Shown: piece after piece, positions 4,851 to 18,592 of the stretch
How the letters are laid out: the number at the start of each line of letters is the position of its first letter
How positions within the stretch are numbered: position 1 is the stretch's first letter
Assembly: GCA_947623805.1 (NCBI GenBank)
Contig: CANQHZ010000039.1
Span: 1-32,743, forward strand
DNA from: an uncultured Lachnospiraceae bacterium
GTDB taxonomy: Bacteria; Bacillota; Clostridia; Lachnospirales; Lachnospiraceae
Direction of reading: 5' to 3'
Length of the DNA stretch: 32,743 bases
The notes under the pieces: generated by a model
Told to the model about the DNA's origin: nothing
What the model saw: the letters and a program-made list of their open reading frames with translations, nothing else
Databases searched by the model: none
Program-made: the position numbers and the translations under genes

Positions 4851-5258
4851 ATGAAATATATGACATACAAAGAAATATTGGACCAAATGTATAAGACGCC
4901 CGCGTTTATCCCGTTTCTCGGCATAAACATCACGGAGCTTGACTCGGGCTACTGTAAGGGCGAGATGGAATTAAAGCCCGAGCACTTAAATCCGCTAGGA
5001 ATGGCTCACGGCGGCTGCGTGTTTTCGCTTGCTGACACAATCGGCGGGCTTGCGGCAATATCGCACAATCCCGAGGCGACGGTAGTGACAGTCAGCAGCA
5101 ACATAAACTACCTGCGCCCCGCCGAGAACACGACAAAGCTTGTCGCGCAGTCGCGCGAGATAAAATACGGCAGCAAAGTAGCTGTTTATGAGGTAAACGT
5201 CACCAGTGACGACGGCACGCTGCTTGCAAGTGCGGTGAATAACTACTTTATACTGTAG
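4851..5258 (+). CDS. Hotdog-fold thioesterase, PaaI family
   Basis: This 135-residue protein has the PaaI/YbgC-like signature HLNPLGMAHGGCVFSLADT (residues about 44-62), in which the Asn, the HGG turn and the Asp build the acyl-CoA thioesterase site. Such proteins hydrolyse acyl- or aryl-CoA thioesters as tetramers in the cytoplasm. Two starts are possible: ATG 4851, only 2 bases after the AGGAG at 4844-4848, and ATG 4860, 11 bases after it. Neither spacing is ideal; the longer form is given. It sits 15 bases behind the HAD gene and is closed by a strong terminator. Confidence 0.88.
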   Translation: MKYMTYKEILDQMYKTPAFIPFLGINITELDSGYCKGEMELKPEHLNPLGMAHGGCVFSLADTIGGLAAISHNPEATVVTVSSNINYLRPAENTTKLVAQSREIKYGSKVAVYEVNVTSDDGTLLASAVNNYFIL

Positions 5259-5287
5259 ATTATAAATATTAATTTTAGTATTATGAT

Positions 5288-5325
5288 AAAAAAGGGCAAG
5301 CCGAAAATGGCGTGCTCTTTTTTTG
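5288..5325 (+). terminator. Terminator after the thioesterase gene
   Basis: An A run, then GGGCAAGCC, loop GAAAAT, GGCGTGCTC and a run of seven T. The stem has nine positions with one G.T pair and one mismatch. It separates the housekeeping operon from the defence island. Confidence 0.85.
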
Positions 5326-5364
5326 CTTATAACAAATGATTATTGCGAGTTCTGTCCCAAAACG

Positions 5365-5393
5365 ATTGACATATGCCCCACACATGCTTATAA
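5365..5393 (+). promoter_or_regulatory. Consensus sigma-A promoter of the ietA operon
   Basis: TTGACA (5365-5370), 17 bases, TATAAT (5388-5393): a perfect match in both boxes and spacing, and the strongest promoter seen in the window. Transcription would begin near 5400, about 25 bases before ietA. Confidence 0.92.
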
Positions 5394-5425
5394 TGAAAAT
5401 ATAAAAAGAACGGAGGCGTGGTGCT

Positions 5426-6469
5426 ATGAAAAAACAAAACATTATCAATCTTGTTAAGTATCATGTTGAACAGAATAATTCAGCATTTATTTCAGAGGTA
5501 TCTGAAATAGCCAAAGATTTTGATGCTAATGGTGATTATGAAGTGGCACAGTATTTGATGGATTTGATTTCAAATGCGAATGTTTACATGCCGCAAGCCA
5601 ACTATCGCAATCTTCAATTTTTAGAAAAGCTTGAATATTCATCTAATCCGCTTCTGCTTCCCAATATAATTGAGGAAGACGTCATAGGGATAGTGCGCGC
5701 GGTAAAGAATAAGACAGGTATGTCAAAATTTCTTTTCTATGGAGCGCCAGGCACGGGGAAAACAGAGTCAGCTTTTCAAGTCGCCCGATTGCTTGAACGC
5801 GATATTCTTTCAGTTAATATGGAGCAGCTTGTTGACAGCAGATTAGGAGAGACATCAAAAAATGTAATAAGACTGTTTGATGAGATAAATCATTTGATGT
5901 ACGGTAAGGCTGTTGTTTTCTTTGATGAGCTTGATGCCTTAGTGCTGAACAGAAACAGTACAAATGACCTGCGCGAGATGAGCAGAGTAACTTCGACATT
6001 TTTAAGAGAATTGGACGCTTTAAGCGATCAGATTTTAGTGATTGCCGCAACCAACCTGTTTGAAAGCTTTGACAAGGCGCTGACGAGAAGATTTGATGCC
6101 ATTGTTTCATTTGACAGATATTCAAAGGAAGACTTGATTGAAATTGCAGATGCCATGCTTACATCAAACATAAAGAAGGCGGTTAATTCAAGTCAGGATT
6201 TAAGACTTTTTAATAAAATTTTAAACAGGCTGACGGATATTCCATATCCAGGCGATATGAAGCAGATAATAAAAACATCTATCGCATTTAGTGATGAGGC
6301 AAATAAATATGACTATTTGAGAAAGATTTATCTTGCTTTGAATGACAATCCGAAAACGGTTGACATTCAAAGCCTTTCGGAACAGGGATTTACCACAAGA
6401 GAAATAGAAATACTTGCCAGAGTTCCCAAAAGCAGCGTAGCGCGCAAACTAAAGGGAGGAATTGCCTGA
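5426..6469 (+). CDS. ietA: AAA+ ATPase, IetA-like defence protein
   Basis: This 347-residue protein has an N-terminal helical part (about 1-95) followed by an AAA+ module. Walker A is GAPGTGKT (residues 106-113), Walker B is VVFFDELDAL (D167, E168), sensor 1 is IAATN, and an arginine-finger region reads LTRRFDA. The last 30 residues contain TREIEILARVPKSSVARKLKG, which fits a helix-turn-helix pattern. The gene overlaps the subtilase gene by one base (TGATG), with AGGGAGG ahead of that start, so the two are translationally coupled. AAA+ ATPase plus subtilase is the composition of the IetAS plasmid-stability and anti-phage system. The ATPase is thought to control its partner protease. It starts at ATG 5426 behind GGAGG with 9 bases spacing. 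The ATPase call is certain; the IetA name rests on gene context and domain pairing. Confidence 0.85.
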   Translation: MKKQNIINLVKYHVEQNNSAFISEVSEIAKDFDANGDYEVAQYLMDLISNANVYMPQANYRNLQFLEKLEYSSNPLLLPNIIEEDVIGIVRAVKNKTGMSKFLFYGAPGTGKTESAFQVARLLERDILSVNMEQLVDSRLGETSKNVIRLFDEINHLMYGKAVVFFDELDALVLNRNSTNDLREMSRVTSTFLRELDALSDQILVIAATNLFESFDKALTRRFDAIVSFDRYSKEDLIEIADAMLTSNIKKAVNSSQDLRLFNKILNRLTDIPYPGDMKQIIKTSIAFSDEANKYDYLRKIYLALNDNPKTVDIQSLSEQGFTTREIEILARVPKSSVARKLKGGIA

Positions 6470-8730
6470 TGAATAATTTACTGGAATTAAAAGTGAGATA
6501 CAACCATGGAAAAAGAGTCGGAAATCCTGTCTTTTTAAATCTTAGGAAAAATGGAGAAACGACAGTCGAAAAAATTCAGCATTTACAGGAAAATTTAAAG
6601 GCAATAGTCAGATATTACAATTCGGTTGACCGATATTTAAAAGGATATTTGATAGATGTCAATTATAATGACATCATTGCAAAATCCAAGAGGATAAGCG
6701 AATTGCTCAAACCCGACGGTAAACAGTCAAATGATGCTGTAGTAGGAGCGCGTTTTTCGGATGCGCCGTCAGGACAGGAAAACCATATAATCACTTATTA
6801 CGTAGACGAAGAAACAGTTGACAAAACTATTGTGAAGATGGAGGAAGCGAAAAGATTTTTAACGGAAAAATTAGGAGGAAAAGCAGTACCGGAAAATTTT
6901 AATGAATCAAAAGAAAAAAAGAACGTTTTAGACTATAGTGGATATTCTTCAAAAAGTTCAATTCGTAATATGATAGTTGATTGTTCCGTAGTAGAATCTA
7001 TGTCAGTCCCAAATGTAACGGCAGACAGACAAAGAGAGTCGTTTCTGCTGACCTTCTTTCAGACAGAACAGTCATTGTCCGAAATGCTGGAAAAGCTTGA
7101 AATAGACAGGTATCAATATCCGTATGCATTTTACGGAAATGACACTATCTCGGCAGACTGGAATTTGTATAAGCTCCTTAAAGATAAAGTCCCTTATATG
7201 ATTTCAATGATTTCTTCAGACCTGTCACAATTGACGATAGACGATGCTTATAAAACAGCCGAAAGGCACAGACAATATATTCCCAAACCCTCTAATGAGC
7301 CGACGATAGGCGTTATTGACAATTTATTTGACGAAGGCGTTTATTTTTCCGAATGGGTTGAAAACAAGGATTATCTCGATGAACTTGAAATGATTGGCGG
7401 CAGAGAAGTTTCAAGAGATCATGGCACAGAGGTGACATCTATAATTGTAGACGGACCAAGCCTTAATCCATGGCTTGATGACGGATGCGGCAGATTTAAG
7501 GTGCGTCATTTTGGTGTGTGCGTGGACAGGATTTCAGTGCCGAGGCTGGTCAATAAAATCAGAAAAATTGTAAGCGATAATCCCGATATTCATGTGTGGA
7601 ATTTGTCACTTGGCACCAATGATGAAGTGTCCAAGAATTTCATATCGTATGATGCTGCGGCGTTGGACGATCTGCAGGCGAACAAAAACATTATTTTCGT
7701 AGTGTCCGGTACAAATGATAACCGAAATGAGAAAAAAGGTATATTGCGGGTAGGTTCACCTGCAGATTCGTTAAATTCGGTAGTCGTTAATTCAGTGAAG
7801 AGAAGCGGTATACCAGCATCATATACCAGAAAAGGGACTATTCTGTCGTTTTTTAATAAACCTGATGTGTCTTATTATGGAGGAGATTATGAGGAGAGCG
7901 AACGCATAAGAGCCTGTTCGTCTAAAGACGTGGAGGAAGTATACGGGACGTCATTTGCCGCCCCTTGGATTGCAAGGAAGCTGTCATTTCTGATTGATGT
8001 CATGGGATTTACAAGAGAAGTGGCAAAAGCCTTGATTATAGATGCGGCAGCAGGGTGGGAATTTAAGGTGTCGGCATACAAAATCCAAAATCAGATTGGT
8101 TATGGCGTAGTACCGATAAAAATATCGGATATTATAGAGTCGGATAACAGGGAAATAAGATTTTTTTTATATGGTACGGCAAGCTCATACATTACTTCAA
8201 ATTATTCTATACCTGTTCCACGTGATTCTGACAATAAATATCCTTTTATTGCGCGGGCAGCGATGTGCTATTTTCCCCAGTGTTCAAGAGCGCAGGGCGT
8301 GGATTATACTTCCAGAGAGTTATCGTTGAAATTTGGACGTGTGAATAGAGAAGGCAAAATTGATGATATTAATGAAAACGTTCAGGATGAATCAGGACAT
8401 GCTGTTGACGAACGCCAGTCGCGCAGGGATTTCAGAAAGTGGGAGAATACGAAATTTATATCAAAGGTTCTGAAAAATAATAAGGCTTTGAAAGCATATG
8501 ATGAGCGGTTGTGGGGTATATCAATCACTTCAAAGGAAAGGCTTGCTGATTCGTTGAGCGGGAATTTGAATTTTGGAGTAGTTGTCACGCTTAGGGAAAT
8601 TGATGGCGTTAATAGAATACAGGATTTTATTACGGCTTGTACATTAAGAGGATGGATTGTAAATGAGATTAGCGTTGATAACAGATTAATGCTTTATAGT
8701 AAAAATCAGGAGGAGGTAACGTTTGATTAG
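6469..8730 (+). CDS. ietS: Subtilisin-like serine protease, IetS-like defence protein
   Basis: The protein has 753 residues with a peptidase S8 domain in the middle. The complete catalytic triad is visible: D284 in GVIDNLFD, H318 in DHGTEV and S495 in GTSFAAP, with the oxyanion Asn N416 in SGTNDN. About 280 residues of unknown fold precede the domain and about 170 follow the active serine. There is no signal peptide, so it should act inside the cell, unlike most subtilases. It is coupled to the AAA+ gene by a TGATG overlap. In IetAS systems the protease is presumed to be the effector or toxin and the ATPase its controller; the target is not known to me. The DSR2-like gene follows after 59 bases. 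Confidence 0.85.
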   Translation: MNNLLELKVRYNHGKRVGNPVFLNLRKNGETTVEKIQHLQENLKAIVRYYNSVDRYLKGYLIDVNYNDIIAKSKRISELLKPDGKQSNDAVVGARFSDAPSGQENHIITYYVDEETVDKTIVKMEEAKRFLTEKLGGKAVPENFNESKEKKNVLDYSGYSSKSSIRNMIVDCSVVESMSVPNVTADRQRESFLLTFFQTEQSLSEMLEKLEIDRYQYPYAFYGNDTISADWNLYKLLKDKVPYMISMISSDLSQLTIDDAYKTAERHRQYIPKPSNEPTIGVIDNLFDEGVYFSEWVENKDYLDELEMIGGREVSRDHGTEVTSIIVDGPSLNPWLDDGCGRFKVRHFGVCVDRISVPRLVNKIRKIVSDNPDIHVWNLSLGTNDEVSKNFISYDAAALDDLQANKNIIFVVSGTNDNRNEKKGILRVGSPADSLNSVVVNSVKRSGIPASYTRKGTILSFFNKPDVSYYGGDYEESERIRACSSKDVEEVYGTSFAAPWIARKLSFLIDVMGFTREVAKALIIDAAAGWEFKVSAYKIQNQIGYGVVPIKISDIIESDNREIRFFLYGTASSYITSNYSIPVPRDSDNKYPFIARAAMCYFPQCSRAQGVDYTSRELSLKFGRVNREGKIDDINENVQDESGHAVDERQSRRDFRKWENTKFISKVLKNNKALKAYDERLWGISITSKERLADSLSGNLNFGVVVTLREIDGVNRIQDFITACTLRGWIVNEISVDNRLMLYSKNQEEVTFD

Positions 8731-8789
8731 GCAGGGAAAAATTGTGGTGGCATATTAAAGTTTTAGATTATTATGTGGAGATGAAAAAT

Positions 8790-11753
8790 ATGTATGAAGA
8801 TGAGTTTCAACGAATTATGGATTCCTCTAGGAAAAATACGCTTACTATTTTTGTGGGAGCGGGAGTGTCGAGAATGTCAAAAGCACCATCATGGAAAAAT
8901 TTAATTGATGATTTTTGTGGTGCTTTAAAACGAAACAAAAATGTAAGTACAGATGAATACTTAAAAATTCCTCAAATTTATTACTATTCTATAGGTAGGG
9001 ATGAAGACAGGTATTACTCTTTTATTTGTGAACGTTTTAAATGTAATAAATTGAAACCTAATGTTATTCATAAAATGCTATTTGAGCTAAAACCATGCTC
9101 TTTTGTAACAACAAATTTTGATGATTTACTGGAAAAAGCTTCAATAGAATATTGTACAAGCTATAAAACTGTTGCTTGTGATGAAGAAGTGTCGGAGATT
9201 TACGGAGATAGGTATATATTGAAAATACATGGAGACCTTGCTCATAGAAACATTGTGTTAAAGGAAGAAGATTACTTAAATTATAGTGATAATTTTAAGC
9301 TGATAGAAACATTGCTTAAGTCAATATTTTCTACAAATACAGTTCTGCTGATAGGATATGGATTGAATGACTATAATATAAAACTAATTCTAAATTGGGC
9401 AAAAAGTCTTTTAAAAGATCATTTCAACAAGCCGATTTTTATATACACTGATGATGAAAAGTTAACAAGTGAGGAATTGATTTACCATGAGTCAAGAGGC
9501 TTGAGCGTAGTTGAATATTATAAATGCAACGGTTTTGTAGAGCGATTGGATAGTTTAAAGTATGAAAATAGGTATAAAACGGTTTTAAAAGCTATTAAAG
9601 TTAGTGACGAAAACTCTATCAAGGATAAGGATAAAGAAGGTTTATTTAATGTTTTATTTTCGCGATTGAAGCCACTTAATGATATGTGGGCGTTGAAAGC
9701 GAGTGATATACAGGAAAAATTAGGTCAGCTTGTAATTGTGGAGCAAATAGGAATGGTTATTCAACGTTGTAAGCAACCCAATATTTTTGAACGATTTATA
9801 GAAATCAATCAAATGGATTGTTCGCAACGAAACAGTTTGCCATATGAAGAACTGAATAAGTATAAAATCATTGCCAGTGTGCTTTCAAAAGGTAATATTA
9901 CTTCTTATAAAACTATTGATAAATATAGCCATATTATTAAGCTGAATGATATAAGATATTCTTTTGCAGATAAATTGTGCCTAACTTTTGACTATTTGAA
10001 TATGGATAGATATATTTCAAAAAAGCATAAATCTATACGCAATAATTATAAAAAAGCATTTTATTTATCAAAACTGAAGAGATATAAAGAAGCATTTGAG
10101 ATTTTTGGACAAGTGGCAACAAAGGCATTTGCTAATAAAAATTATCTACTTTATTATTTAGCTCAAACCAATAAATACAAAGTGTATAAGGCTATGGAAT
10201 TAGTTAGAAATAATGATTATTCTAAGTTGAGTGATGAAGAAAGAATGGGAATGTCTGCCTCACAAGTTGAACACCTTTTTGATAATTTGCCTCATGAATT
10301 TCAGGTAACATATTCCTGTTTTAAAGATCTTGCCTCAGTCAATTTATTATATAAAAACTCATATGAGTCGCGGATAGATAATAGAAGACTTCAAAATATT
10401 ATAGAAACTGATTCTTTGGAGATAGGGATAACCAGCTTAGATAAAGTCGTTTCCAGATTGAATGGAAATTTACACTTTTTGTTGGGGAATGCGTTATATA
10501 TAGATGAATATGTTGAGTTCAAAAATACTGTTAAAGATGTAATGGAACAACTTATCTTTAAATATTCCATACAAAACAAAGAACGGAGATCAAATTCTGC
10601 TTTTGGGGATGTTATTAATCAAAAGATAATGTTTAATTATGTGGATTTTTATTGTTTTATAGAATATTTTAATCCCAAGGAACTAAGTCGTTTACTTTCT
10701 AAATATGATATCAAAGAAATTGAATTTAGTGAATTAGAAATTATATGCAAAAGTATAGAAAATATTATAAATTATTATGAGCAAGTCATTGAAAAAAGTA
10801 TGGCACAAATTGAAAAAAAGTCTTATCAAGGCAAGATAAAAACTTGTATGATTTTGCTACGATACTTTTCTATTCCACAAAAATTAATGGATAAGTTGTG
10901 CTCATTTATATTGAAATATGATTTTTGTGATATTTATATAGATGAAAAAATATATTTTTTAGAGTATCAAATAGTAAAGAGAAATATGTCAAGTTATGCC
11001 ACATCAACAATCATTGAGAATAAGTTAATAGACTGCTTGGACAAGCATATTGAGACTGCCGAAAAGGGAAAAGATTTTTGTATTCCTTCTCATATGAGAA
11101 ATGTTAATTATTACAATTTGGTTCATTATATTAAGCCAAGACCATCTATAGTTCGTTTGACAAAAAGATTTAATAAAATATTTGATATTGGTATTGGAAA
11201 TTTCCCGATAGAAATGTTTGAACACTGTTATTTGTATTTGTCTGATAATATGAAAAATAAGACGATTAGAAATATGAAAAGATTGTTAAATAAGGATTTT
11301 GATTTTAAATATTTTACATTTTTAGTAGCACATGATATAAAGATAGAAAGCGATTTAATCAAAAAATTAAAACTGTATTTGGATAAAATTATTAAAATTA
11401 CAGATATAACAGTAGAAGGTGTGACAATATATCCTCAAAATGATAAATATGAAGATTTAGTAGATGTTGGATATTGGTGTTTAATTAATGTACTGCCAGC
11501 AATAGAATTTAAAAAATATGTTGGATATAGTGAGCTTTTTGATTTCTATTACTTGTATGATAAGTTTGACTTTAGTAAATTTGATGTTAAATGGCTTTTG
11601 GGATTATATGAACCTATTATTGAAAAAATATGTGAGAATAATTATGTGAAATCAAAGCTTCGTTCGGTGGTAGCAATAAGTGTGCAAGATAAAAAATTAA
11701 ATCCGAAAGATGAGAAAAAATTATTGAAGATTTTAACACATTATTTATGTTGA
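8790..11753 (+). CDS. dsr2: DSR2-like SIR2-domain anti-phage NADase
   Basis: The N-terminal SIR2 domain (about 1-260) shows GAGVS (residues 23-27), the catalytic pair N109 in TTNFDD and H147 in KIHGD, and GYGLNDYNI. The N to H spacing of 38 equals that of DSR2 as I recall it (N133/H171). The remaining 700-odd residues are helical repeats with no enzyme motif, ending KLLKILTHYLC. Size (987 against about 1,005) and layout match DSR2, which senses a phage tail tube protein through its C-terminal part and then destroys NAD+, stopping growth of the infected cell. ATG 8790 is chosen because GTGGAG lies 9 bases upstream; ATG 8781 and TTG 8742 are in-frame alternatives. The gene is very A+T-rich, a sign of transfer. 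It is probably co-transcribed with ietAS. Confidence 0.87.
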   Translation: MYEDEFQRIMDSSRKNTLTIFVGAGVSRMSKAPSWKNLIDDFCGALKRNKNVSTDEYLKIPQIYYYSIGRDEDRYYSFICERFKCNKLKPNVIHKMLFELKPCSFVTTNFDDLLEKASIEYCTSYKTVACDEEVSEIYGDRYILKIHGDLAHRNIVLKEEDYLNYSDNFKLIETLLKSIFSTNTVLLIGYGLNDYNIKLILNWAKSLLKDHFNKPIFIYTDDEKLTSEELIYHESRGLSVVEYYKCNGFVERLDSLKYENRYKTVLKAIKVSDENSIKDKDKEGLFNVLFSRLKPLNDMWALKASDIQEKLGQLVIVEQIGMVIQRCKQPNIFERFIEINQMDCSQRNSLPYEELNKYKIIASVLSKGNITSYKTIDKYSHIIKLNDIRYSFADKLCLTFDYLNMDRYISKKHKSIRNNYKKAFYLSKLKRYKEAFEIFGQVATKAFANKNYLLYYLAQTNKYKVYKAMELVRNNDYSKLSDEERMGMSASQVEHLFDNLPHEFQVTYSCFKDLASVNLLYKNSYESRIDNRRLQNIIETDSLEIGITSLDKVVSRLNGNLHFLLGNALYIDEYVEFKNTVKDVMEQLIFKYSIQNKERRSNSAFGDVINQKIMFNYVDFYCFIEYFNPKELSRLLSKYDIKEIEFSELEIICKSIENIINYYEQVIEKSMAQIEKKSYQGKIKTCMILLRYFSIPQKLMDKLCSFILKYDFCDIYIDEKIYFLEYQIVKRNMSSYATSTIIENKLIDCLDKHIETAEKGKDFCIPSHMRNVNYYNLVHYIKPRPSIVRLTKRFNKIFDIGIGNFPIEMFEHCYLYLSDNMKNKTIRNMKRLLNKDFDFKYFTFLVAHDIKIESDLIKKLKLYLDKIIKITDITVEGVTIYPQNDKYEDLVDVGYWCLINVLPAIEFKKYVGYSELFDFYYLYDKFDFSKFDVKWLLGLYEPIIEKICENNYVKSKLRSVVAISVQDKKLNPKDEKKLLKILTHYLC

Positions 11754-11881
11754 CTAGTATAAAGTAATTATATAATTAAGAATGGGCAAAGCATAATGTA
11801 CTTATGATAAAGTTAGATTGTGAAATAGGAAATGCATTATAGTATAAAATAGAATAAAAACAAAGGAGATAATAATAAAAA
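11754..11881 (+). promoter_or_regulatory. Spacer between dsr2-like gene and hsdM with weak promoter-like boxes
   Basis: TTGACT (11750-11755, overlapping the dsr2 stop codon) is followed after only 15 bases by TATAAT (11771-11776). Further down, TTGTGA (11818-11823) precedes TATAAA (11843-11848) by 19 bases. Both have poor spacing, so the hsd promoter is not settled. No terminator is seen. Confidence 0.35.
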
Positions 11882-13477
11882 ATGTCAGAAAAAAAAGATT
11901 TATTACAGGTTTTGTGGAGCGGGGCAGACGTGCTTAGAGGAAAGATGGATGCAAATGAGTACAAGACCTATTTGCTTGGATTGATATTTTACAAGTATTT
12001 GTCAGACGCTTATTTGTCAAAAGCATATGATTTGCTGCATGACAGCGTGCCAAACAGCTTAGATGAAGCGCAAATATCATATGAAGAAGCTATGAACAGT
12101 GAAGATGCAAAAGAATTGTCAGAAGAACTTAAAGAATCTCTGCACTACACATTGGCGCCTGATATGACATATGTTAGCATGCTTCATGACGCAAGAAATA
12201 ACTGTTTCAATCGAGAAAAGCTGCAGGCTGCGTTTAACCGAATAGAGGAGTCAGATGAGTTGTTTAATGGACTATTTGCTGACGTTGACCTGTACTCAAA
12301 CCGCCTTGGCGCAGCAGACCAAAAGCAGAGCGCCACTATATCGGAAGTAATTAAGGTATTGGCTGACGCTGATTTGATACATACAGAAGGCGATGTTTTG
12401 GGCAATGCTTATGAATATTTGATTGGACAGTTTGCTTCGGAAACGGGCAAAAAGGCAGGGGAGTTTTATACCCCGCATGGACCTGCGCAGATTTTATGCA
12501 GAATTGCAATGACAGGTCAGGAAAATAAAAAAGGGCTGCAGGTATACGATCCCTGTATGGGTTCGGGTTCGCTTATGCTTAGCTGCAGAAACTATTCGTC
12601 AGAACCTGAATATATTAAATATTACGGACAGGAGCTGATGCCGTCAACGTACAATCTTGCGAGAATGAACATGTTCCTGCACGGAGTCTTGCCCGAAAAT
12701 CAGCATTTGAGAAACGGAGACACACTTGATGCTGACTGGCCTACGGATGAAGAAACAGAGTTTGACGTGGTTACGATGAATCCGCCATATTCGGCTAATT
12801 GGTCGGCGGCGGAAGGATTTAAGCAGGATGAGAGATTTATGGATTACGGCGGCAAGCTTGCGCCTAAATCAAAAGCGGACTATGCCTTTTTGCTGCATGG
12901 ATTTTATCATTTAAAGCAGACGGGAACTATGGCAATTGTGTTGCCGCATGGGGTTTTATTTAGGGGAGCTTCGGAAGGAGTCATACGTGAAATATTACTG
13001 CAGAACGGCTCAATATACGCAGTGATTGGACTTCCTGCAAATATGTTTTATAATACATCGATTCCTACCTGCATTGTGGTACTCAAAAAACACCGCGAGG
13101 GAAGGGATGTACTGTTTATTGATGCATCAAAGCTCTTTGAAAAAGAAAAGAAACAGAATGTGATGCGTGATGAGCACATTGACCGCGTGCTTGAACTGTA
13201 TAACAACAGAAAAAATGTTGAGAAAGAAGCGTATCTAGCATCTTATGACGATATTGTCGCAAACGGATATAATCTGAATATACCAAGATATGTTGATTCT
13301 TCGGAAGAAGAAGCAGAGATTGATTTGAAGGCGCTTGTACAAAACATAAGGGAAACGGATAAGGCAGTAAAAGAGGGAAATGCGGCATTGCTTGAAATGA
13401 TGAAAGATTTAAGGTTTAATGATGATAAGACGAAAGAAGTGGTTGGTGAATTTATCAAAGCACTGGAGGAGGCATAA
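11882..13477 (+). CDS. hsdM: Type I restriction-modification system, methyltransferase subunit
   Basis: This 531-residue N6-adenine methyltransferase starts with the HsdM N-terminal helical domain (LWSGADVLRGKMDANEYKTY...). The S-adenosylmethionine motif follows as DPCMGSGS (D223), after the FYTPHG turn, then the catalytic NPPY (N300-Y303). Two HsdM and one HsdS form the methylase; adding HsdR gives the restriction complex. An in-frame stop just upstream (11876) fixes ATG 11882. The AAAGGAG ribosome binding site lies 13 bases away, which is long. The 3' end carries GGAGGAGG that serves hsdS, which begins 3 bases after the stop codon. The length fits the EcoR124-like branch. Confidence 0.97.
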   Translation: MSEKKDLLQVLWSGADVLRGKMDANEYKTYLLGLIFYKYLSDAYLSKAYDLLHDSVPNSLDEAQISYEEAMNSEDAKELSEELKESLHYTLAPDMTYVSMLHDARNNCFNREKLQAAFNRIEESDELFNGLFADVDLYSNRLGAADQKQSATISEVIKVLADADLIHTEGDVLGNAYEYLIGQFASETGKKAGEFYTPHGPAQILCRIAMTGQENKKGLQVYDPCMGSGSLMLSCRNYSSEPEYIKYYGQELMPSTYNLARMNMFLHGVLPENQHLRNGDTLDADWPTDEETEFDVVTMNPPYSANWSAAEGFKQDERFMDYGGKLAPKSKADYAFLLHGFYHLKQTGTMAIVLPHGVLFRGASEGVIREILLQNGSIYAVIGLPANMFYNTSIPTCIVVLKKHREGRDVLFIDASKLFEKEKKQNVMRDEHIDRVLELYNNRKNVEKEAYLASYDDIVANGYNLNIPRYVDSSEEEAEIDLKALVQNIRETDKAVKEGNAALLEMMKDLRFNDDKTKEVVGEFIKALEEA

Positions 13478-13480
13478 TTT

Positions 13481-14662
13481 ATGGAGAATATACCGAATAT
13501 ACGATTTAGTGGGTTTACTATGCCTTGGGAACAGCGTAAGTTGGGGGATGAAGCAATAGAAATACTGGCTGGTGGGGATATAGATAAAGATAAAGTAGTC
13601 GAGGAGGGTAAATATCCCATTTATGCAAACGCTTTATCTGGTGATGGAATCGTAGGATATTATAATGACTATTATAGGGTTAAAGCTCCCGCTATCACGG
13701 TAACAGGACGTGGAGAAGTGGGGCATGCGCAAGCAAGGATGTCTGATTTTACGCCAGTTGTAAGGCTTTTAGCAATACGATCAAGGCATGACTGTTATTT
13801 TTTGGAGAATGCGATAAATAATCATAAAGTTGTTGTTGAGTCTACAGGTGTGCCGCAATTAACAGTTCCGCAATTATCATCATATGATATTTGTTTTCCC
13901 AGTGATATTGGGGAAGAAGTGAAAATTGGCGAGTATTTTCATAAATTAGACACCCTCATCACACTTCACCAACGGAAGTGTGAAGAAACAAAAACTCTAA
14001 AAAAATATATGCTTCAAAAAATGTTTCCACAAAATGGAAGGAAAGTTCCGGAAATTAGATTTGTGGGCTATACAGACAATTGGAAACAATGCAAATTGTC
14101 GGAAATCAGTGAAACGTTTGAATATGGCTTAAATGTTGCAGCAAAAAAGTTTGATGGAAAAAATAAGTATATCAGAATAACGGATATAGATGATATATCA
14201 CATGAATTTATTTTGGATAATGTTACTTCGCCTGATACTGACTTAACGAATGCTGAAAACTATAAATTGGAAGAAGGGGATATTCTTTTTGCGAGGACAG
14301 GTGCCAGTGTTGGAAAAACTTATATGTACAGAAATTCTGATGGATTGGTATATTATGCTGGATTTTTAATTAGAGCTAAAATAAATAAAAGCATTAATCA
14401 TGAATTTATTTTTCAAAATACACTAACAAAAGATTATAAAAAATATATTACAATTACTTCGCAACGTTCCGGTCAACCGGGAGTTAATGCGCAAGAGTAT
14501 TCCGAGTATAGAGTTATGATACCAAATCGCGATGAGCAGGATAAGATTAGTGTTTATTTAAGGAACTTAGACAATATTGTTAGCCTTAATCAACGCAAAT
14601 GTGATTATTTTAAAGAAGTGAAAAAATACATGCTAAAAAACATGTTTCCACAGAAAGGATAA
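13481..14662 (+). CDS. hsdS: Type I restriction-modification system, specificity subunit
   Basis: This 393-residue protein has the standard two target-recognition domains. The first (about 1-160) starts with IRFSGFTMPWEQRKLGD. The second starts near residue 188 with IRFVGYTDNWKQCKLSE. Each is followed by a conserved helical spacer, LHQRKC...KKYMLQKMFPQ near 163-186 and LNQRKC...KKYMLKNMFPQ at the C-terminus, which form the paired coiled coils that set the distance between half-sites. The recognised bases cannot be read from sequence. It is translationally linked to hsdM (3 bases) and hsdR (3 bases). There is no truncation and no nearby recombinase or second hsdS copy. Confidence 0.95.
   Translation: MENIPNIRFSGFTMPWEQRKLGDEAIEILAGGDIDKDKVVEEGKYPIYANALSGDGIVGYYNDYYRVKAPAITVTGRGEVGHAQARMSDFTPVVRLLAIRSRHDCYFLENAINNHKVVVESTGVPQLTVPQLSSYDICFPSDIGEEVKIGEYFHKLDTLITLHQRKCEETKTLKKYMLQKMFPQNGRKVPEIRFVGYTDNWKQCKLSEISETFEYGLNVAAKKFDGKNKYIRITDIDDISHEFILDNVTSPDTDLTNAENYKLEEGDILFARTGASVGKTYMYRNSDGLVYYAGFLIRAKINKSINHEFIFQNTLTKDYKKYITITSQRSGQPGVNAQEYSEYRVMIPNRDEQDKISVYLRNLDNIVSLNQRKCDYFKEVKKYMLKNMFPQKG
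13966..14660 (+). repeat. Internal direct repeat pair in hsdS (spacer helices)
   Basis: The segments about 13966-14039 and about 14585-14660 encode the two conserved spacer helices and share the order CAACG...AAATAYATGCT...ATGTTTCCACA. They are diverged, not identical. Such repeats are where type I specificity subunits exchange or circularly permute recognition domains. Confidence 0.6.
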
Positions 14663-14665
14663 GAT

Positions 14666-17617
14666 ATGGCAGAGTTAGAATCCGTTATTGAACAAAAACT
14701 TATAGCGCAGCTATGCAGTGGCGAATCCCAATGGACATACAGACCTGATATTAAAACAGAAGAAGACTTATGGAATAATTTCAAATACATTCTTGAACAG
14801 AATAATAAGGCAAAACTCAATGATATTCCACTGTCGGAATCAGAATTTGCCAAGGTAAAGAACGATATTTCGCATGCGTCATTTTACGATGCCGGGAAAT
14901 GGCAGGTTGGCGAGAACGGAAAAGTTTATGTTCATGTACAGCGTGGAAATGATACATTGCATCTTGTCGTTATGAATAATGAACACATTGTGGGTGGTAC
15001 GAGCGTTTATGAAGTGATAAATCAGTATCAGGCTTTTGTGACTGACAACGACGATGGCAAGCGCGACAGAAGATTTGATGTTACACTTCTTATTAACGGA
15101 ATACCGATGATACATATTGAACTAAAAAATAAAGACCATTCTTATATAGACGGATATAGGCAGATAAAGAAATACATATCTGAGGGAAAATTCCATGGGA
15201 TTTTTTCTAATGTCCAAATGTTTGTGGTGAGTAATGTCACTGATACAAAATACTTTGCCGCAGTCAGAGCCGCAGAGCTTGACAAAAAAATGATTACAGG
15301 ATGGCTGGATGAAAAAAATCAACCTGTATGTGATTACCTTGACTTTGCAAAAGCAGTTCTGAAAATACCGCATGCGCATGAAATGGTGACAAGATATACA
15401 GTTCTTGACAATGACAAAAAGAAACTGATTATTTTGCGCCCCTATCAGATTCAGGCAATAGAAGCGATGCGCGCCGCCTCTAAAAAAGGAAAATCAGGCT
15501 ATATCTGGCATACAACAGGTTCGGGCAAAACCATGACTTCGTATAAATCCGCCAGAAACCTTTTGATGGATATTCCGTCTATTGAAAAGACTATTTTTCT
15601 TATAGACAGAAAAGACTTGGACACTCAGACCAAAATGGATTTCCAGTCATACGCGGAGAATGATACAATAGATGTAGATGATACAGAATATGTAAATACC
15701 CTGATTAAAAGGCTGACTGACGGCAACCGTCAGATGATAGTCACGACAAGACAGAAAATGCAGATTATGGTTGACAGGCGTCTGAAAGAAGGCACTAAGG
15801 ATTATGAGAAAATAAAAAATCTAAGAGTTGCGTTTGTCGTTGACGAATGTCACAGAGCGGTATCGCCTGAAACAAAAAGAAAATTGGAAAGATTTTTTAA
15901 TAATTCATTGTGGTATGGTTTTACAGGCACACCAATTTTTGATGAAAACAGTTATGAGCAAAAAGGCGACTTACCTCAAACTACGCAGCAGCTATATGGC
16001 GAGTGCCTGCACAGCTATACTATAAAGGAAGCCATTCATGATGAAGCCGTTCTTGGATTTATGGTGGAAAATCTGGGACCAAAAGACGAAAATGCAGACG
16101 AGGCTGTATTTGATACGGAAACACACATGAGAAAGGTTTTGAATGTGATTTTAAACCAGTCATACTCAAAATTTGGCATGCAGAATGGCAAGGGAAGAAC
16201 ATATGAAGGCATTCTTACGGTAAAATCTATTTCGCGGGCGCAGAAGTATTATGAACTCTTAAAAAGGGTAAAGGAAGGCGGCGATGAATTGAAAATAAGC
16301 GAAGATGTGAAGAAAAAACTTCCTGATTTTCCCAAGTTTGCAATAACATATTCCGTATCGGAGAATGAAGAAGCTTCTCAGTTAAATCAGGATAAGATGT
16401 ACAATGCGATATGTGAGTATGATGAAATGTTTGAAACAAATTTTAAGAATGGCGGAATCGATGCTTACAATAAAAATCTAAATGAAAGACTGGCGCGAAA
16501 AGAGAAGAAATATTTGGAAAGAAGCCAGCAGCTTGACTTGGTTATTGTAGTGGACAGGCTTTTGACAGGGTTTGATGCGCCCTGCCTTTCGACGCTTTTT
16601 ATGGACAGGCAGCCTATGAGTCCGCAGAATATTATTCAAGCTTTTTCGCGTACTAACAGGCTGTTTGGCGATGAGAAGTTATATGGGTACATTGTAACAT
16701 TTCAATCGCCGGGCAATTTCAAAAATGCAATTAACCATGCTTTGAAAATGTATTCTCTCGGTGGAAAGGGCAGTCCGTTGGCAGAGGATTGGGACATTGT
16801 ATTAAAGTCATTTTCCGTTTCTGTAAAGGCTATTCATGCGCTTGCAAAAACGCCCGAGGAAATAGCCGCATTGTCAAGGAAACAGAAAAAGTCGTTTATT
16901 CACATGTTTAGGGCATTGGATCATGATTTTGCGCATTTAAAATCATTTTCAAGCTATAAGGAAGAAATCCTTTCGGAATACGATTTTTCAGAAGAACAGT
17001 ATGAAAATTATGCGGCAATGTATAAAAATGTTATGGAAGAATTGAAAAATCCAAGCGACAGTGAGCCGCAGGAGGAGCCTGTATTAGATGATTATGATTT
17101 AGTTGCTTATAATAAGATACGTATTGACTTTGAGTATATACTTGAATTGCTGCAGGGAGTCGTAGAATCGCTAGAGCAGTTTCGGAATGATTTTAAAGAG
17201 ACTGAATTTGAGCTTGAAATAAAGAAAGTCAAAGAATTTGTTGCTGAGTTTTCAAAAGATAATCAAAAACTTAGTGAACTGTTAAATATAGTCATTAATG
17301 AAATAGAGAAAGACAAAGCCAAATACGCAGGGCAGGATATTTCAGTGATTGTAAATCAGATGAGAAGCGTTGCCATTGACAGGGAAATAGAAAAGTATGC
17401 CAAAAAGTGGTATGTAGATGTGGAAAATGTAAAATATGAGGCATACAATTATAGAAATGGTGTGTTGGCAAATGAAAATAATCTGAAAGAGAGTGCGGAT
17501 TATGCCGCGTACAGCGCTAATACGCAAAATCCTATGAAAAAATTAAAGTTCAGGATAGAAATGATTAACGACTTTAAAAATGAACTGATGGTGAATATAC
17601 AGCCATTGCTTGTATAA
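14666..17617 (+). CDS. hsdR: Type I restriction-modification system, endonuclease/translocase subunit
   Basis: This 983-residue protein carries an N-terminal PD-(D/E)XK nuclease with D138 and E152-L-K154 (IELKNKDH). It is followed by a superfamily 2 DNA translocase with Walker A TTGSGKT (K288), the DECH box at 393-396, motif III TGTPIF and motif VI QAFSRTNR. A helical C-terminal region (about 800-983) would dock on the HsdM/HsdS core. On unmethylated sites it pulls DNA in and cuts at a distance. It starts 3 bases after hsdS behind AAAGGA. All motifs are intact, so the system looks functional. No terminator reading in this direction is obvious behind it; the hairpin at 17661-17698 better fits the opposite strand. 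Confidence 0.97.
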   Translation: MAELESVIEQKLIAQLCSGESQWTYRPDIKTEEDLWNNFKYILEQNNKAKLNDIPLSESEFAKVKNDISHASFYDAGKWQVGENGKVYVHVQRGNDTLHLVVMNNEHIVGGTSVYEVINQYQAFVTDNDDGKRDRRFDVTLLINGIPMIHIELKNKDHSYIDGYRQIKKYISEGKFHGIFSNVQMFVVSNVTDTKYFAAVRAAELDKKMITGWLDEKNQPVCDYLDFAKAVLKIPHAHEMVTRYTVLDNDKKKLIILRPYQIQAIEAMRAASKKGKSGYIWHTTGSGKTMTSYKSARNLLMDIPSIEKTIFLIDRKDLDTQTKMDFQSYAENDTIDVDDTEYVNTLIKRLTDGNRQMIVTTRQKMQIMVDRRLKEGTKDYEKIKNLRVAFVVDECHRAVSPETKRKLERFFNNSLWYGFTGTPIFDENSYEQKGDLPQTTQQLYGECLHSYTIKEAIHDEAVLGFMVENLGPKDENADEAVFDTETHMRKVLNVILNQSYSKFGMQNGKGRTYEGILTVKSISRAQKYYELLKRVKEGGDELKISEDVKKKLPDFPKFAITYSVSENEEASQLNQDKMYNAICEYDEMFETNFKNGGIDAYNKNLNERLARKEKKYLERSQQLDLVIVVDRLLTGFDAPCLSTLFMDRQPMSPQNIIQAFSRTNRLFGDEKLYGYIVTFQSPGNFKNAINHALKMYSLGGKGSPLAEDWDIVLKSFSVSVKAIHALAKTPEEIAALSRKQKKSFIHMFRALDHDFAHLKSFSSYKEEILSEYDFSEEQYENYAAMYKNVMEELKNPSDSEPQEEPVLDDYDLVAYNKIRIDFEYILELLQGVVESLEQFRNDFKETEFELEIKKVKEFVAEFSKDNQKLSELLNIVINEIEKDKAKYAGQDISVIVNQMRSVAIDREIEKYAKKWYVDVENVKYEAYNYRNGVLANENNLKESADYAAYSANTQNPMKKLKFRIEMINDFKNELMVNIQPLLV

Positions 17618-17660
17618 GAACAATATAATTTTTTATGTTAATATATCATCAGGTTTAAAC

Positions 17661-17698
17661 AAAAACATGGGGGCGTTTCCAAACTGGAAACACCCCCA
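17661..17698 (-). terminator. Terminator of the 222-residue protein gene
   Basis: TGGGGGCGTTTCCA (17668-17681) pairs with TGGAAACACCCCCA (17685-17698). On the minus strand the odd position is a G.U pair and the stem is followed by TGTTTTTG, a good T tract. On the plus strand it would be a C-A mismatch with a poor tail. It may still slow transcription arriving from hsdR. Confidence 0.75.
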
Positions 17699-17715
17699 TA
17701 ATTATCATTCTATTA

Positions 17716-18384
17716 TTATTCCTCACCCTTAACAACCACAGTCCCATCTTCAGTAGTAGTAGAGTTGTCAGGTTTTGTCTCCTCTGCCGGCTTGATAAGG
17801 TTGTCAAGCTTTTCGATAACAGAATCATAAGTCCTCTTTGAAATATCAGGCAGCTCGCCGCCCCATGTCTTTTCAGCCTGCTTATAGCCCTTGATAAACG
17901 CGTCACGCATCTTTTCAAGCGCGCTCGTATCATCACCTGCAAGCGCCGTAGCAAATGAAACAATGCGGTCAGAAGTCTGCTTTACGCCCCAGTAGCCATC
18001 TTCGGAAATAGCCTCCTGCGCTTTCTGCTTTGTCTCAGCGTCCACAGTGAAATTGCCGCTTGCAAGAAAACGCCAGATATTGTTTGCTTTGCCAAACATA
18101 TCGGTCTGCGTTGAAAGCATATTATGTACAAGCTCTGTAAGCTGAGCCTGACGCTTTTCCTGGTCAGCCTTTAACTGCGCCACGATAGTCTTCCTGTCGT
18201 CCTCAGAAAGCTTTGATTTGTCATAGACTGCGGCAGTATCATCCTGCTTGGAGGTAGTGACCTCGGCAGAAGCCTCGCTCTCAGACGCCTTAGAAGATGT
18301 AGCGCTCTCAACAGCCTGATTCTGCTCATTTATGGCAGAAGTATTGGTATAAACAGCATCGTTAATAGTTGGAATTGTGCTCAT
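17716..18384 (-). CDS. Conserved-looking protein of unknown function (possibly DUF5610-like)
   Basis: This 222-residue acidic soluble protein has no signal peptide or membrane helix. The first 60 residues are low-complexity, rich in Ser, Ala, Glu and Thr. The centre (about 62-200) is mostly helical and contains ISEDGYWGVKQTSDRIVSF and KTWGGELPDIS, which resemble what I remember of DUF5610; that match is from memory and weak. A short acidic Thr-rich tail ends the chain. It starts at ATG 18384 with AAGGGAAGGG upstream. It has its own promoter and terminator and faces the defence island, so it is probably a stand-alone core gene and not part of the island. Function unknown. Confidence 0.72.
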   Translation of the reverse strand: MSTIPTINDAVYTNTSAINEQNQAVESATSSKASESEASAEVTTSKQDDTAAVYDKSKLSEDDRKTIVAQLKADQEKRQAQLTELVHNMLSTQTDMFGKANNIWRFLASGNFTVDAETKQKAQEAISEDGYWGVKQTSDRIVSFATALAGDDTSALEKMRDAFIKGYKQAEKTWGGELPDISKRTYDSVIEKLDNLIKPAEETKPDNSTTTEDGTVVVKGEE

Positions 18385-18469
18385 ATGGTATCCCTTCCCT
18401 TCTATAAATTACAATAAATATAGTCATCCATGACTGCGCATTAATATGTTTCTTTGAATTTATATCGTC

Positions 18470-18478
18470 ATTATAACA
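18470..18478 (-). promoter_or_regulatory. Extended -10 promoter of the 222-residue protein gene
   Basis: On the minus strand TGTTATAAT (18478-18470) is a TG-n-TATAAT extended -10. The region 17 bases upstream (TTTTAT) is a poor -35. The leader to the start codon is about 80 bases. Confidence 0.5.
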
Positions 18479-18592
18479 CGAAAACTTTACCAATAAAAGA
18501 AAATTTTTGCTGAAAAAATCGCACAAAACGAGTATACTTACATTATATAAAACTCACAAAAATAAGTACGAATTGGAAATTTTCCCAAAATA

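Follow-up and report, generated by a model that had tools for sequence, protein, structure and literature searches.

We analysed a contig of 32,743 bp (CANQHZ010000039.1, here called the window) from the 3.96-Mb draft genome, 95.7% complete, of an uncultured Lachnospiraceae bacterium. By sequence comparison, positions 5426-17617 of the window hold three known kinds of anti-phage defence, namely an IetA-IetS pair (IetAS), a homologue of the NADase DSR2 and an apparently complete type I HsdM-S-R restriction system. The locus is ordinary as a defence island, because all of its families are known, and it is a new assortment of known parts; what is new is a candidate operator of IetAS together with its probable reader. 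As judged from related loci, the anti-phage island is modular and its chromosomal site exchangeable, and statistical evidence shows that IetAS travels with its own promoter, the -35 element of which is bracketed by TGTCCCA direct repeats. We consider it probable that the whole can be explained as a modular, exchangeable island with a toxin-antitoxin-like IetAS pair, in which IetA would repress itself by way of the repeats.

A conserved promoter with direct repeats accompanies IetAS

An alignment of the DNA upstream of IetA across genomic settings revealed the conserved block TGTCCCAAAA...TTGACAT.TGTCCCA........TATAAT, in which two copies of TGTCCCA, 20 or 21 bp apart from start to start, bracket the -35 element. 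With at most one mismatch per copy, the repeat preceded ietA at 46 of the 50 loci, with a spacing of 20 bp in 20 and of 21 bp in 26 of them, and the remaining four upstreams carried what appeared by eye to be degenerate copies. As a control, the loci outside the IetA upstreams gave six matches in 1,698,032 bases on both strands, that is, 0.0009 per 260 bases. The 50 upstreams were obtained from 54 by removing L074 (truncated), L081 and L085 (too short) and L109 (a copy of L087). TTGA lay between the two copies in 40 of them, and TATAAT, with at most one mismatch, followed in 43. Since the 53 IetA proteins form only nine clusters at 70% identity, the loci are related and not independent; in the 25 aligned loci with a spacing of 21 bp and enough upstream DNA, conservation stops upstream of the block.

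In the draft genome from which the window derives, TGTCCCAN{12,15}TGYCCC had a single match, at 5353-5379. The bare exact pattern gave 36 matches in 30 of 392 genomes of the order; TTGAC lay inside eight of these, and all eight were upstream of IetA in IetS-positive genomes. The remaining 28 are mostly probably due to chance, because a backwards control pattern gave 20 matches in the same 392 genomes. The candidate operator accompanies IetAS into varied neighbourhoods (BREX, type I and solitary) and into genomes whose labels span several families and classes, and a Carnobacterium IetA with a clostridial-type tail is preceded by CGTCCCA and TGTCCCA, 20 bp apart and with one mismatch. In the literature searched, which included PMC8562856, PMC5006074 and PMC10954446 and did not cover the original 2009 pTiC58 paper, there was no report of a trigger, of transcriptional control or of an operator of IetAS.

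The possibility that the operator is carried by phages as a decoy was rejected, as tblastn found neither IetA nor IetS in at least 120 loci listed from a scan of viral contigs. A second scan of viral contigs for the operator returned 45 stretches, the tblastn comparison covering the loci of the first scan. On two Ligilactobacillus plasmids (L147 5001-6005 and L152 4001-5005), IetA-like ATPases have a shortened tail and no operator, and no S8 peptidase is annotated in the fetched stretch.

IetA is the candidate reader of the repeats

As the operator follows IetAS and not its neighbours, its reader is most simply sought among the products of ietAS. The pair resembles IetA/IetS of pTiC58, sgiAT of SGI1, the AAA-ATPase/subtilisin pair of Mycoplasma mycoides subsp. 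capri and the NCBIfam families 'IteA/IteS' in that an AAA+ ATPase gene lies directly 5' of a subtilase gene, with the same antitoxin/toxin gene order and intact catalytic residues; in the window, the ietS start overlaps the ietA stop (TGATG). The Walker motifs and the RR pair were kept in all 32 aligned IetA sequences, and D284, H318, S495 and N416 were invariant across all 29 aligned IetS sequences. The scores stayed below the NCBIfam equivalog cut-offs (116.7 of 510 bits for IteA and 131.5 of 900 bits for IteS), and by this comparison IetAS of the window is a member of the wider family and not an equivalog. According to passages of the mycoplasma study, the AAA-ATPase/subtilisin pair is a toxin-antitoxin system, loss of the antitoxin being lethal in a semi-minimal mycoplasma and the subtilase being toxic in E. 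coli (PMC8562856), and sgiAT is described as behaving like this pair (PMC5006074). By analogy, IetAS would be a pair of the toxin-antitoxin kind, with IetA restraining the IetS protease. The island pair differs by its tail, which resembles a helix-turn-helix (HTH), and by its TGTCCCA promoter, on both of which the passages on sgiAT and on the mycoplasma pair are silent (PMC5006074, PMC8562856); those on sgiAT also make no mention of autoregulation.

In the IetA tail, all of 23 compared sequences share the residues T, R-E-I, S, R and L. For divergent IetA tails, the best Pfam match was a DNA-binding HTH family in ten of ten cases (E 1.2e-6 to 0.026), three of which (L374, L375 and L373) reached the curated Pfam cut-off, and six of the divergent tails could be aligned with the clostridial ones at an hhalign probability of 83% (E 8.7e-6, a single comparison). 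A resampling test for upstream repeats was applied to 21 loci with 400 resamplings; Hymenobacter DG01 shares its protein accession with APR13 and was not counted as independent. Exact 10-base repeats were found in Hymenobacter at 21 bp and in Sphingopyxis at 20 bp, each being reached by none of the 400 resamplings, and a repeat at 20-22 bp was present in none of the five loci with a tail-less IetA. An Acinetobacter IetA whose HTH tail is clear is preceded (L374 2658-2817) by three copies of TGGTAAA, approximately 19-21 bp apart by eye, along with an inverted copy.

We therefore weighed a specific reading, to which we assign an even chance: IetA might be both an AAA+ antitoxin and the repressor of its own operon, with a C-terminal HTH that binds repeats 20-21 bp apart bracketing the -35 element. 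Tail and repeat would then co-vary across bacteria, with TGTCCCA in Clostridia and Carnobacterium and other repeats of the same spacing in Hymenobacter and Sphingopyxis, and the genes behind IetS (DSR2, Tmn, HsdMSR or PglX) would be placed under a phage-responsive switch. The repeats are two helical turns apart, on one face of the DNA; the C-terminal HTH of IetA would sit on both of them and block RNA polymerase, and a change in IetA brought about by a phage would release IetS and end the repression. Such control has precedents. Antitoxins can repress their own promoters, as stated in passages of a report on the RptR/RRDM island of enteropathogenic E. coli (PMC12255303), which as described there also combines a type I system and an embedded defence module with a repressor acting on direct repeats in a promoter. 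Unlike RptR, a small dedicated repressor that recognises TAGCTA sites according to the same passages, the candidate repressor here is an AAA+ antitoxin and its putative sites are TGTCCCA repeats.

IetA may also gate DSR2 and the restriction genes through a shared promoter. On the forward strand of 5200-18500, a single, weak terminator-like site was listed, at 8251, such sites being in no excess (5 versus 7.7 in shuffled sequences), and no internal promoter match in the island exceeds 10/12. The lack of a clear forward terminator before 17617 and of an internal promoter above 10/12 would allow DSR2 and hsdMSR to share the ietA transcript, and these genes may thus be read at least partly from the IetAS promoter.

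Several observations weigh against control by IetA and against a shared transcript. The clostridial tail alone has no significant Pfam match, and its best PDB profile match has an E-value of 0.09. The exact repeat was found in none of the three plasmid records of Carnobacterium, Macrococcus and Enterococcus. In the resampling test, no significant repeat at 20-22 bp was detected in Acidovorax, Dongshaea, Methylotuvimicrobium, Paenarthrobacter and Agrobacterium cucumeris, all with HTH-like tails, and Mesomycoplasma was negative; Enterococcus (P 0.06) and Acinetobacter (P 0.18) were only suggestive, and the Macrococcus loci were split, with P 0.01 in one versus P 0.69 in its relative. This test is insensitive, because the operator of the window itself scores P 0.70. 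Another regulator could bind the repeats. According to passages of the study on SGI1 (PMC5006074), sgiAT under its own putative promoter had no plasmid-stabilising effect, which the authors took to mean that activation is needed; simple repression does not fit this. As to transcription, promoter-like matches in 5200-18500 number 69, versus 51 (standard deviation 8.4) in shuffled sequences, some of the 10/12 matches lie on the forward strand inside genes, and the DSR2 and HsdM genes have leaders of 59 and 128 bp.

IetAS neighbourhoods and the question of coupling

We found 38 IetS loci in named genomes, and neighbour scans covered 30 chosen downstream genes. IetA was directly upstream in 36 of the 38 loci, and an HsdM of the window's family was downstream in three. 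Conversely, 22 further HsdM relatives were found in 397 genomes of the family, and the 17 of these that were fetched with 3.9-10.4 kb of upstream DNA had no IetAS within that stretch. Obligate coupling of IetAS and HsdMSR is ruled out by these counts. That IetAS and HsdMSR occur apart is also in line with an ordinary island without any shared control, in which three independent systems would have been brought together by chance insertion and selection and would be separately expressed, the repeat being the site of an unlinked host regulator. Such a regulator should have other targets in its regulon, which is why a pattern with one match in the genome of the window, and confined to IetA upstreams in the 392 genomes when TTGAC lies inside, speaks against it, as does the spread of the repeat with IetAS across several family and class labels. 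We regard an island without shared control as a tenable, if somewhat doubtful, explanation.

A closer coupling would follow if IetAS guarded a neighbouring methylation-based system and were set free on inhibition of the HsdM/PglX machine by a phage, as in the case of PrrC, which reportedly guards EcoprrI. In several of the 38 loci, IetAS indeed directly precedes a methylation-based operon or lies within one, its neighbours being HsdM (L069, L101 and L084), BrxC/PglX (L076, L078 and L104), a split type IIG/ISP enzyme (L072) and BrxA (L089). However, other IetAS loci have no methylation-based neighbour, among them the close relatives L070, L073 and L075 as judged by their lists of open reading frames (ORFs), and passages of two studies present AAA/subtilase pairs that work alone as toxin-antitoxin systems (PMC8562856, PMC5006074). 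Restriction systems are common defence genes, and a neighbourhood of IetAS and restriction genes thus needs no coupling; a guard role appears unlikely to us. The systems of the island might still act jointly, and the comparisons favour modular neighbours over one machine.

In three BREX operons, IetAS is located between BrxC and PglX (L076 4464-12428, L078 2346-14138 and L104 3744-14505). Neither 'IetA' nor 'subtilisin' occurs in the main text of a 2026 survey of BREX (PMC12839542).

On comparison of the loci, the IetS/HsdM junction is a cargo slot, which is empty in L069 (the locus of genome G026) and in L101 and is occupied by DSR2 in the window and by Tmn in L074. The Tmn gene (L074 3423-7079) fills the slot with a YobI-like P-loop NTPase of 1219 residues (PADLOC E 4.4e-71; Pfam YobI-ATPase). 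A defence system embedded in a type I cluster is a known arrangement, as passages of two reports indicate (PMC11411939, PMC12255303). The slot is similar to the case of TgvAB, which the former describes as a further defence system within a type I cluster, that of VPI-2 in Vibrio cholerae, but differs from it in its cargo and in its position, as TgvAB lies among the type I genes and the slot lies between IetS and HsdM (PMC11411939).

The island occupies an exchangeable chromosomal site

The site comparison covered 31 of the 35 same-genus genomes, of which the stretch downstream of metG was used, G002, G004, G018 and G027 being left out owing to a contig end or the lack of a strong metG match. 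The thioesterase gene and the gene for a 222-residue protein that flank the island were both at the site in three of the 31 relatives (G026, G028 and G019); the L052 stretch ends 95 bases after the HAD gene and is uninformative on the thioesterase gene. The flanking genes, taken for core genes in an initial sequence-only reading of this DNA, are thus core in a small clade only, the thioesterase gene following HAD in just three of the 31 relatives. The genes of the island do not belong to an ancient core, as two of the three site-sharing relatives have other restriction genes at this place: in G028, the island is replaced by a D12 adenine methylase together with an AlwI-type nuclease, identified by Pfam, and G019 has the same methylase with a shortened nuclease (171 versus 565 residues), both recognised by near-identical translations. 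In the latter locus (L039), the nuclease frame is internally shortened and the methylase frame is open.

The alternative contents share both end points, the thioesterase stop codon on the left and, on the right, the terminator that belongs to the 222-residue gene, as is expected from exchange in homologous flanks. A mobile element with its own recombinase would also account for differences in presence between close relatives, but this is highly improbable: besides the shared end points, the window has no tRNA and its 19 proteins include no recombinase by Pfam, attachment repeats not having been searched for. An island of the integrase/tRNA type was rejected for the lack of a tRNA and, by the same Pfam scan, of a recombinase, and the absence of mobile-element marks noted by the sequence-only reading holds to that extent.

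The third site-sharing relative, G026, has IetAS and HsdMSR without DSR2 and with an IetS-HsdM gap of 45 bp. Compared with G026, the window has a divergence at four-fold sites of 13.4% in IetA, 10.7% in IetS, 3.5% in HsdM and 4.6% in HsdR, versus 40-65% in HAD, in the 222-residue gene and in seven genes farther out; the values are 19% for the thioesterase gene and 36% for HsdS (45 sites). The low divergence of the island against that of its flanks suggests a transfer of the cassette between species, in at least two pieces, after the lineages had split. HsdM and HsdR are 99% identical between the two genomes and HsdS only 34%, and HsdS thus appears to have been exchanged between these relatives. 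DSR2 is likely to have arrived separately from the rest of the cassette, as its G+C content of 27.7%, versus 35-42% in the other five island genes, fits a separate arrival; alternatively, DSR2 could have been lost in G026. The question of how the island arrived, which had been left open, is herewith partly answered at the level of inference by exchange through the flanks and stepwise insertion.

Genes and boundaries of the island

The six ORFs of the island (Table 1) are all on the forward strand, head to tail in the order IetA, IetS, DSR2 homologue, HsdM, HsdS and HsdR, between the thioesterase gene on the left and the convergent 222-residue gene on the right. All of them are open, and the catalytic residues that were checked are intact. 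The head-to-tail layout seen in the sequence-only reading was borne out by the ORF list, and so were its assignments by database searches: the PADLOC profiles of IetA and IetS match the first pair, the DSR2-like NADase aligns at full length with PDB chains of DSR2, and the three Hsd subunits all exceed their Pfam cut-offs. Its boundaries fared less well. The hairpin at 5288-5325, proposed as the left boundary, is part of the variable segment, given that homology to G028 and G019 stops at 5257, and was not listed by the terminator scan. The right hairpin was called, at 17666-17700, as a terminator of the minus strand, which belongs to the convergent 222-residue gene and to the conserved flank.

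Table 1. Features of the island, of the ietA promoter and of the chromosomal site (window coordinates unless a locus is named).
Feature	Position	Strand	Evidence
Variable segment of the site	5258..17656		Homology to G028/G019 stops at 5257 (thioesterase stop codon) and resumes at 17657
First candidate operator half-site, TGTCCCA, just upstream of -35	5353..5359	+	Upstream alignment
Sigma-70 promoter of ietA, TTGACA-17-TATAAT, 12/12 consensus bases	5366..5394	+	Only 12/12 site listed in 5200-18500
Second candidate half-site, TGCCCCA (TGTCCCA with one mismatch), in the -35/-10 spacer	5374..5380	+	21 bp from the first, start to start
IetA, AAA+ ATPase with Walker A, Walker B, RR finger and C-terminal HTH-like tail (residues ~317-344)	5426..6469	+	PADLOC IetA E 2.6e-40; Pfam AAA
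IetS, subtilase, catalytic D284/H318/S495 and N416	6469..8730	+	PADLOC IetS E 4.2e-55; Pfam Peptidase_S8
DSR2 homologue, 987 aa, SIR2 NADase, N109/H147	8790..11753	+	PDB DSR2 chains E 2.9e-85; between IetS and HsdM
HsdM, type I adenine methylase, NPPY at 300	11882..13477	+	TIGR00497 352.8 bits (cut-off 242.75); Pfam N6_Mtase
HsdS, two target-recognition stretches	13481..14662	+	PF01420 (Methylase_S), 2 stretches
HsdR, endonuclease/translocase, TGSGKT, DECH	14666..17617	+	TIGR00348 305 bits (cut-off 284.55); HSDR_N, SWI2_SNF2, EcoR124_C
Alternative site content, D12 methylase and AlwI-type nuclease	L038 1368-3915; L039 1804-3175 (reverse complement)		Pfam/translation

The DSR2 homologue was listed with a TTG start at 8742, and we prefer the ATG at 8790, which by eye has the better ribosome-binding site. 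Its residues 7-986 align end to end, through the SIR2, middle and C-terminal domains, with the PDB chains of B. subtilis DSR2 (8k98, 8wkt, 8wy8 and others), and its Pfam domain is SIR2_2. The name DSR2 rests on these PDB sequences, because PADLOC reported no DSR2 model for this protein and gave SIR2-type models only (for example ThsA1, E 6.4e-25). In the alignment, N109 and H147 are the equivalents of N133 and H171 of B. subtilis DSR2, mutation of which abolished NAD+ cleavage according to passages of PMC11087589. The homologue thus has the full length and the catalytic N/H pair of B. subtilis DSR2 and differs from it in being embedded in an IetAS-HsdMSR string. The known DSR2 is triggered by a phage tail tube protein and inhibited by DSAD1; by analogy, an encounter with such a tail tube protein would lead the homologue to deplete NAD+. 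In genome G396 (L135 6363-11033, minus strand), the next DSR2 homologue (39-40% identity) precedes a short frame of 207 residues that resembles HsdM, giving another DSR2 beside the remnant of a type I methylase.

The restriction genes have nothing unusual for a type I restriction-modification system, with all three subunits and an EcoR124-like C-terminus of HsdR. HsdM and HsdR exceed their NCBIfam cut-offs in addition to those of Pfam, and HsdS stays below that of NCBIfam (63.5 of 662 bits). By analogy with the known family, HsdMSR would cut unmethylated DNA.

Implications

The IetS/HsdM cargo slot is a place in which to seek new defence genes. The short operator that follows IetAS provides a direct handle on the pair, and control by IetA predicts that an AAA+ antitoxin binds DNA. 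If true, it would explain how a compact island might silence a toxic protease and an NADase and then activate several defences by one switch.

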